A stretch of DNA of 64,000 nt. Source: Rhodoflexus caldus (lineage in GTDB: Bacteria; Bacteroidota; Bacteroidia; Cytophagales; Thermoflexibacteraceae). Every line of letters starts with the position of its first letter. Position 1 is the first letter of the stretch. Where the stretch lies: positions 1 to 64,000 of the forward strand of contig NZ_JAJPRF010000003.1 of the NCBI RefSeq assembly GCF_021206925.1. The letters are read 5' to 3'. Under the pieces are notes generated by a model. It was not told the origin of the DNA. It did no database searches and worked only from the letters and a program-made list of their open reading frames with translations. The position numbers were made by a program, and so were the translations under genes. Shown here one piece after another: positions 34,874 to 52,678 of this stretch.

Positions 34874-35128
34874 CTATTTGAGCGAATCGGTTACGTATGG
34901 TAACAGCGCCAGATGACGGGCACGCTTCACGGCTTGTGCTACGCGGCGTTGAAATTTCAGGCTGGTTCCTGTCAGGCGACGAGGTAAAATTTTACCTTGT
35001 TCGTTTACGAATTTCAACAGAAAGTTCGCGTCTTTGTAGTCGATGTACTTAATTCCGCTCTTCTTGAAACGGCAGTACTTTTTCTTGTTTTCGTTGTTTC
35101 TAACAACTGATTCGTTTACGAGTGTCAT
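34874..35128 (-). CDS. rpsR: 30S ribosomal protein S18
   Basis: The 84-residue protein shows the S18 core: [56 protein letters not shown]18 binds S6 and the central domain of 16S rRNA. It is the middle gene of the operon, 5 bases after rpsF. Confidence 0.98.
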
Positions 35129-35548: not shown

Positions 35549-35578
35549 CAAAGTTAGACCAAAACATCTGAAAAACAA
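35549..35578 (-). promoter_or_regulatory. Promoter of rpsF-rpsR-rplI
   Basis: On the minus strand, TTG (35578-35576) is followed after exactly 19 bases by TAACTTTG (35556-35549), a full match to the Bacteroidota consensus. The predicted start near 35544 gives a leader of about 36 bases. Confidence 0.85.
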
Positions 35579-50648: not shown

Positions 50649-51566
50649 TCAGTCGCGCAGCCAGCCTTTGCGCCTGAACCAGAAGTAAATCAATATTACT
50701 ACGCCAATCATAAAAAGCCAAGTCAGCCCGTAGCCCCATTCCATTTCTAATTCGGGCATGTATTTAAAGTTCATGCCGTAAACCCCTACGATGAAGGTAA
50801 GCGGCATGAAAAACACCGAAAAAATGGTCAGGATGCGCATTACCTCATTGGTGCGGTGCGATGCCAGCGAGAGGTGAATGCTCAACAGGTTGTTGGCATC
50901 TTCGTAGAGTTGGCTTGCCTGATAGTGCAGCCGCGAGGCATTGTCTATTACGTCCTGCAAATAGGGTGATTTGTCTGCATATGTCAGGCCTGTTTTGTTC
51001 AAAATCTCATTAACCGACATGAGCATATTCTTCATCACCGATGCACGGCGGCGGAGCAAATACAGTTTTTCAATAATGGACGTAGGAGCATTGTCGCTGA
51101 AAATGAGCTCTTCGTATCGGTCTAATTCTTCGGCTGCTGCATTAAGCGGCGGCTCATAGGTATGCACTACCGAGGCGTACACATCCAGCATAATCAAAAA
51201 ACTCAGGTCGGTTTCATTTTTATGATAAACGCGCCATTTGTTGCGAATGACTTTCAGGTTTTCGTGGTCGTGGCGATGGATAGAGACCAGAAAGTTATCG
51301 CCGATGAAAAAGGCAAGTTTATTGGTCATCTTGCGTACGGTATCGCACTCGGGCGTGGAGTTTTCGTCAAACATCCGCACGATGATGAATGACACATCGC
51401 CAATTTTCTCATACTTGGGCAAGTGTTCAGGTTCTAAGCAATCCTGCACCGAAGTAGGGTGCAAATCGTACTGTACGGCCACCTGTGAAAGCTCGCGCAG
51501 CGAAGGGTCTATCAGGCTCGTCCACTCAAAACCGGTGGCCTTGCTTTTGAAAACCGACTCTATCAT
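50649..51566 (-). CDS. corA: CorA-type magnesium/cobalt channel
   Basis: The 305-residue protein has the large cytoplasmic N-terminal funnel (about 1-245) and two C-terminal membrane helices; the first ends in the selectivity motif GMN (VGVYGMNFKYMPE). The final residues (FRRKGWLRD) form the usual basic cytoplasmic tail. CorA pentamers move Mg2+ into the cell. It starts one base after the prfB stop codon, so it is probably co-translated with prfB, an unusual functional pairing. Confidence 0.95.
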   Translation of the reverse strand: MIESVFKSKATGFEWTSLIDPSLRELSQVAVQYDLHPTSVQDCLEPEHLPKYEKIGDVSFIIVRMFDENSTPECDTVRKMTNKLAFFIGDNFLVSIHRHDHENLKVIRNKWRVYHKNETDLSFLIMLDVYASVVHTYEPPLNAAAEELDRYEELIFSDNAPTSIIEKLYLLRRRASVMKNMLMSVNEILNKTGLTYADKSPYLQDVIDNASRLHYQASQLYEDANNLLSIHLSLASHRTNEVMRILTIFSVFFMPLTFIVGVYGMNFKYMPELEMEWGYGLTWLFMIGVVILIYFWFRRKGWLRD

Positions 51567-51567
51567 A

Positions 51568-52645
51568 TCAGTTCTGCATTAGAAAGGCTTTGATAAATTC
51601 GTCAATTTCGCCATCCATAACACTTTGTACATCAGAGGTTTCCGTACCGGTGCGCAAATCTTTGACCAACTTGTAAGGATGAAACACATAGTTGCGGATT
51701 TGCGAACCAAAATCTATGCGTTTCTTCGTGTTTTCTATCTGGGCGCGGGCTTCGTTGCGCTTTTCAAGCTCCAACTGATAGAGGCGCGATTTGAGCATTT
51801 TCAGTGCTTTCTCTTTGTTCTGAATTTGCGAGCGCTCCTGCTGACACTCAATAATCAGGCCTGAGGGGGCATGGCGCAACCGAACCGCTGTTTCTACCTT
51901 GTTTACGTTCTGCCCGCCTTTGCCGCCTGAGCGAAAAGTCTCCCAAGTAATGTCCGCCGGGTTGATTTCAATCTGAATAGAATCATCAACAATCGGGTAG
52001 GCATATACCGATGCGAAAGAGGTGTGGCGGCGGGCATTGGAATCAAAAGGCGAAATGCGCACTAAACGGTGTACGCCTATTTCGGCCTGCAAATAACCAT
52101 AAGCAAAGGGGCCGTCTATTTCCAGCGTGGCAGACTTAATACCTGCCCCTTCTCCGGGCTGATAGTTGAGTTCCGAAACTCTGTAGCCGTGTTTTTCGCC
52201 CCACATAATGTACATGCGCATCAGCATTTCAGCCCAATCTTGGCTTTCGGTGCCGCCCGCGCCGGGATTGATTTCTACAATTGCACCGAGCTGGTCTTCT
52301 TCTTTGTCCAGCATTTTTTTCAGTTCCAGCTCAGCTACTATTTTTTCGGTTTTATCTCTTTCTGCCAGAATCTCTTTTTCGCCTACTTCTCCGGCAGTGT
52401 AAAACTCATAAAGTACCTCTAAGTCATCCACTGCTTTTTGTGCCTGCTCAAAGTCGTTTGTCCAGTTTTTGCGCTGCTGGATTTCCTTCATGGTTTGCTG
52501 AGCGGCCTGCGCGTCGTCCCAAAAGTCGGCGGCAGTGGTTTTAGCCTCCAATTCGGCTATTTCTTTGCGTTTGCCGTCGTAGTCAAAGATACCTCCTCAA
52601 GGCCGATATACGCGCCTTCAAATCTTCTAACTGTGTGATTGTCAT
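51568..52645 (-). CDS. prfB: Peptide chain release factor 2, with programmed +1 frameshift
   Basis: RF2 releases proteins at UGA and UAA. Translation starts at ATG 52645 ([20 protein letters not shown]) and meets an in-frame UGA at 52585-52583. The slippery codon CTT (52588-52586) comes just before it, and AGGAGG (52597-52592) three bases further upstream is a Shine-Dalgarno-like stimulator. A +1 shift continues as [15 protein letters not shown] and reaches the stop at 51568, giving about 358 residues. GGQ ([16 protein letters not shown]) and a tripeptide-type recognition loop region are present. The shift senses RF2 level (autoregulation). A naive reading would start wrongly at 52551. Confidence 0.96.
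52583..52597 (-). promoter_or_regulatory. prfB recoding site
   Basis: On the minus strand the order is AGGAGG, TAT, CTT, TGA, then C. The spacing (three bases from the SD-like stretch to CTT), the slippery CTT and the weak UGA-C context equal those of E. coli prfB (AGGGGG TAT CTT TGA C). Confidence 0.95.
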
Positions 52646-52670: not shown

Positions 52671-52678
52671 CAAAGTTA
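52671..52678 (-). promoter_or_regulatory. Candidate -7 box (TAACTTTG) of prfB-corA
   Basis: It fully matches TAnnTTTG, 26 bases before ATG 52645. It supports that ATG as the true start. No -33 TTG is at the expected place. Confidence 0.5.

Follow-up and report, generated by a model that had tools for sequence, protein, structure and literature searches.

In Rhodoflexus caldus, prfB, the gene of release factor 2 (RF2), carries an early in-frame UGA behind a slippery CTT codon and a Shine-Dalgarno (SD)-like element, with the rest of RF2 in the +1 frame. This is a genuine programmed +1 frameshift, already known in kind and in phylum, and therefore a correct rediscovery rather than a new system; the E. 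coli-type frameshift put forward in the preliminary description proved exact to the base in motif, frames and coordinates. We put at about 95% the probability that the site works as the standard autoregulatory switch of RF2 synthesis.

By analogy with published work on E. coli and Flavobacterium johnsoniae (the consulted parts of PMC8710568, of the review PMC5009743 and of PMC12421855), plentiful RF2 would terminate translation at the leader UGA and leave only a short peptide, while under RF2 scarcity the ribosome would wait at UGA-C, the tRNA-Leu would slip by one base from CUU to UUU, and the +1 frame would then be translated into the 358-residue RF2. The AGGAGG element, placed three bases before the CUU as in E. 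coli, would promote this slip by pairing with the tail of the 16S rRNA, and given that this tail is normally sequestered in Bacteroidia, the slip may be less efficient here than in E. coli.

Anatomy of the prfB locus and its product

The gene occupies positions 51568..52645 on the minus strand of the window, that is, of the whole 64,000-nucleotide stretch of DNA that was analysed, and its joined product of 358 aa was established by direct reading, translation, TIGR00020 and Pfam. As had been described beforehand, the zero frame opened by the ATG at 52645-52643 closes after 20 sense codons with the UGA at 52585-52583, forming a leader ORF at 52583..52645 (minus strand). Towards its end lie, all on the minus strand, the SD-like AGGAGG (52592..52597; direct reading, motif search and script recheck), a TAT spacer (52591-52589), the slippery codon CTT (52586..52588), on which the peptidyl-tRNA-Leu would move to TTT, and the zero-frame stop TGA (52583..52585), which the C at 52582 places in a weak termination context. 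The whole site, AGGAGG-TAT-CTT-TGA-C, thus spans 52597-52582, with coordinates rechecked by script. The +1 frame (51568..52584, minus strand; translation and NCBIfam prfB) starts with GAC at 52584-52582 (DYDGKRKEI...), runs without a stop to the TGA at 51570-51568 and is predicted to encode RF2 residues 21-358, with the SPF and GGQ motifs. The early TGA leader, the CTT-TGA-C, the SD-like element three bases upstream, the predicted RF2 in the +1 frame and the conservation in close relatives are all found together at this locus. The gene's own stop is also TGA, so that RF2 would terminate its own gene.

The joined product scores 506.7 bits against NCBIfam TIGR00020 prfB (cut-off 370), aligning from profile position 2, and contains the Pfam domains PCRF and RF-1. 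The preliminary description had warned that an automatic caller would split or truncate the gene, and a plain ORF caller does list a 327-aa ORF starting at TTG 52551; the E. coli RefSeq record, for its part, annotates prfB as a two-piece join. An RF2 initiated internally in the +1 frame, at this TTG or at a later ATG, with the leader as a separate short ORF, would agree with that call and with the 483.1 bits that the 327-aa ORF still reaches against the prfB profile. We consider it very improbable, because this ORF begins only at profile position 28 and lacks positions 2-27, which the joined product covers with a gain of 23.6 bits from the leader; because the leader residues align with the N-terminal region of E. 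coli RF2; because conservation takes in the leader and the slip site together; and because the +1 codons from the preceding stop to DYD read GGA GGT ATC TTT, with no ATG, GTG or TTG among them. Alignment with E. coli RF2, which had been proposed as a check, continues through the junction, with LRRYLDYDGK in R. caldus and LRGYLDYDAK in E. coli.

Around the gene, a corA-like gene (Pfam CorA) starts with the ATG at 51566, one base past the prfB TGA, the stop and the start together spanning 51564-51570; this suggests that the two genes are co-transcribed. On the other side, TAACTTTG at 52671..52678 (minus strand), 25 bases before the prfB ATG, is a candidate Bacteroidota -7 promoter box, and a second TAACTTTG box lies at 35549-35556, also on the minus strand, upstream of the gene preceding rpsR, probably rpsF; both boxes fit TAnnTTTG, the -7 consensus of Bacteroidota. 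Searches of the window gave no Rfam match at gathering scores and no predicted tRNA.

Conservation of the site among relatives

All 13 genomes examined in the family, R. caldus included, have the frameshift site together with the 20-codon leader, and 14 of the 16 site positions are invariant among them, including the whole of CTT, TGA and the C that follows. The two variable positions are the fourth base of the SD-like element (A, once G) and its sixth (G, once T), giving AGGAGG in 11 of the 13 genomes, AGGGGG in one (G006) and AGGAGT in one (G005). Compared with three congeners, the leader is identical at 49, 53 and 59 of 60 nt, against 15, 27 and 29 of 60 for the 60 nt upstream of it, aligned without gaps.

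Beyond the family, a sample of relatives comprised 59 genomes including R. caldus, from which one was dropped for want of a match over the prfB cut-off (G043) and in which one gene is partial (G011). CTT-TGA-C was found in 52 of the 58 prfB genes examined, and the other six have CTT-TAA-C (one, G022), CTT-TAG-C (one, G016) or no shift (four: G026, G027, G044 and G054). Among named loci, taken as the best 80 of at least 576 confirmed relatives and possibly overlapping with the set of 58, CTT-TGA-C occurs in 78, the exceptions being L064, without a shift, and L055, with only a 219-residue frame. The closest named record among the matches listed is a Bernardetiaceae metagenome assembly (Cytophagales) with 94% protein identity. 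In a sample of the phylum, AGGNGGYAYCTTTGAC is present in at least 119 of 395 genomes, a lower bound that misses other variants and comes from a sample in which a few families are heavily represented.

We see next to no chance that faulty sequencing or assembly produced the break in the frame, or that prfB is decaying. The window does come from a draft assembly of 40 contigs; against this, the identical break and motif recur in every family genome and in the 78 named loci, the remaining prfB frame is intact, and no other hit in the genome exceeds the prfB cut-off. Sequencing error is rejected outright, since independent genomes share the break. A second match to the prfB profile, on contig C5, reaches 316.5 bits against the cut-off of 370 and is probably RF1.

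Some variants deserve mention in their own right. One site missed by a stricter finder (L130, in G028) reads AGGGGG-TAC-CTT-TGA-C behind a 20-codon leader. Two small genomes of the same order (1.1-1.2 Mb; L133 in G033 and L136 in G048) carry CTT-TGA-C without an upstream SD-like element (AAACACTGT and AAGCACTGT), and their complementarity to the assumed anti-SD amounts to +1.1 and -0.5 kcal/mol, respectively. Such sites, CTT-TGA-C without an SD-like element, are known from some Flavobacteriales. The CTT-TAA-C of G022 lies at about position 436 of L123 (G022:C104:7389-8832), and this variant is given as rare, at 1.4%, in the consulted part of PMC12421855.

The internal Shine-Dalgarno element

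The preliminary description held that SD-led initiation is rare in Bacteroidota and that the internal AGGAGG therefore stands out, and the counts from this genome bear this out. A 4-base SD core at -16..-4 precedes 3 of 163 starts, a level not above that of control stretches farther upstream (7 and 1), whereas the same script finds it at 15 of 30 E. coli genes (45 kb), where the controls give 5 and 0. With 5-base cores the count falls to 1 in R. caldus (1 and 0 in the controls) and to 3 in E. coli (2 and 0). The R. caldus count covers 304 kb, made up of the window and twelve 20-kb stretches of the genome, and takes as starts the first ATG of ORFs of at least 200 aa, some of which will be wrong, with the contrast still clear. 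The genes rpsU and rpsR were inspected because one or both often carry an SD according to PMC8710568, and no SD precedes either rpsU (G000:C1:37744) or rpsR (window position 35128). Surprise at an internal SD in Bacteroidota is not new, the same observation having been made in PMC8710568, where the frameshift is called unexpected given the occluded anti-SD of these bacteria.

The site is far from a chance product of the genome's composition. A single copy of the 16-base motif AGGRGGTATCTTTGAC is present in the 3.96-Mb assembly, the one at prfB, and there is none of its reversed control. Of the 4157 Arg codons in the 163 sampled genes, 214 (5.1%) are AGG, and 1 of the 238 Arg-Arg pairs is AGGAGG, so that a need for two arginines is not enough to account for the element. 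As a plain hexamer AGGAGG is not depleted, with 72 occurrences on both strands of the 304 kb against 65.1 expected from a first-order model. Its duplex with the canonical anti-SD, assumed to hold for this genome, is predicted at -12.9 kcal/mol. A search for 16S rRNA in the 13 family genomes, with a covariance model that recovered 9 of 14 controls and with a 3'-end pattern, found none; the anti-SD of R. caldus is accordingly assumed here and its pairing with AGGAGG putative. This absence is odd, given that some of the family genomes are rated up to 100% complete, and the gene may be missing from the assemblies.

Could the shift proceed here without any SD contribution, the AGGAGG being a relic or mere Arg-Arg coding? 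We think this somewhat unlikely. In its favour are the rarity of SD sequences at the sampled R. caldus genes and the retention of CTT-TGA-C in G033 and G048, where the predicted pairing with the assumed anti-SD is close to nil. To these may be added F. johnsoniae, in which Naeem et al. 2023 are said to have described SD-independent shifting. The consulted part of PMC13245932 cites Naeem et al. 2023 on that species. On the opposite side, AGGAGG or AGGGGG is kept in 12 of the 13 family genomes in spite of the scarcity of AGG codons, and in a larger sample 117 of 131 sites have a predicted duplex with the assumed anti-SD of -8 kcal/mol or better. Rare codons retained together with strong predicted duplexes point to selection on the nucleotides, and the simplest reading of these sequences is that the nucleotides of AGGAGG are under selection. 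A further and bolder reading, prompted by so few starts having an SD while AGGAGG or AGGGGG is preserved at prfB through rare codons in 12 of 13 genomes, is that this family makes hardly any use of the anti-SD at initiation but has its elongating ribosomes employ it on purpose at a single conserved site, the one in prfB. We regard this as rather unlikely. On this reading, the RF2 demand, which the UGA at about 25% of sampled gene ends would make higher than in F. johnsoniae, should also raise the efficiency of the shift above the low level reported for that species.

Known systems and a UAG variant in one relative

The site is one more example of a thoroughly described mechanism. A premature prfB stop is reported for 8,164 of 12,753 bacterial genomes (PMC12421855, as consulted), and the general bacterial motif, CTTTGAC with an SD-like element three bases upstream (PMC12421855 and PMC5009743, in the parts used), is the one found here; the consensus SD-like element nears AGGGGG (PMC12421855) where R. 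caldus has AGGAGG, and nothing substantial separates the two. With E. coli the site shares the spacing and the slippery codon, as had been claimed, and also the stop and the following C: the K-12 prfB control reads AGGGGG-TAT-CTT-TGA-C, one SD base away from the R. caldus site. The two RF2 proteins align over their length, with the junction at the same residue, while the zero frame stops at codon 26 in E. coli and at codon 21 here, and E. coli, unlike R. caldus, commonly has an SD core at its sampled starts.

The closest published counterpart is F. johnsoniae, of the same phylum and likewise seldom using SD for initiation, whose prfB site AGGAGGUAUCUUUGAC is identical over all 16 bases; by the same source, 523 of 726 prfB genes in Bacteroidia have the frameshift (PMC8710568, as consulted). 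The two species differ in order, Flavobacteriales against Cytophagales here, and in stop codon usage: for F. johnsoniae a UGA share of 7% among stop codons is quoted in the consulted part of PMC12421855, and in R. caldus UGA ends 41 of 163 sampled genes (about 25%). On account of this higher use of UGA, the demand for RF2 is probably higher in R. caldus, which would make it a slightly better lineage for testing SD-assisted shifting. Frameshift efficiency is low in F. johnsoniae (PMC12421855). The regulatory benefit is uncertain, as removal of the frameshift in that species came without obvious fitness cost in the part of PMC8710568 consulted, 4 of the 58 prfB genes have no shift and a few sites have little SD complementarity. 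The value of the R. caldus site is modest: it offers another lineage of Bacteroidota, alongside F. johnsoniae but apparently relying more on UGA, in which to ask how an internal SD acts on ribosomes that ignore the SD at gene starts.

A side observation concerns G016, a genome of the same order (2.6 Mb, 97% complete), whose prfB has CTT-TAG-C at 10926-10864 on the minus strand of L168 (G016:C7:40001-51589; also L139 and L173), with the RF2 frame open after the TAG over the length read. TAG is read by RF1, not by RF2. Were it confirmed, this UAG would matter more than the R. caldus site, because RF2 synthesis would fall under the control of RF1 and not of RF2. TGA ends 8 of 59 sampled G016 genes, and RF2 is thus still needed. 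About 700 bases separate the slip site from the end of a contig, the genome is a single draft, the only one of its family sampled, and the SD-like element offers weak complementarity (-2.9 kcal/mol with the assumed anti-SD); the TAG could reflect an error, mark a switch in decay or be a genuine exception. The consulted part of PMC12421855 gives TAG in 0 of 8,164 frameshift genomes. Across 389 genomes of the order, a restrictive pattern for the TAG variant had four matches, and only that of G016 is prfB.
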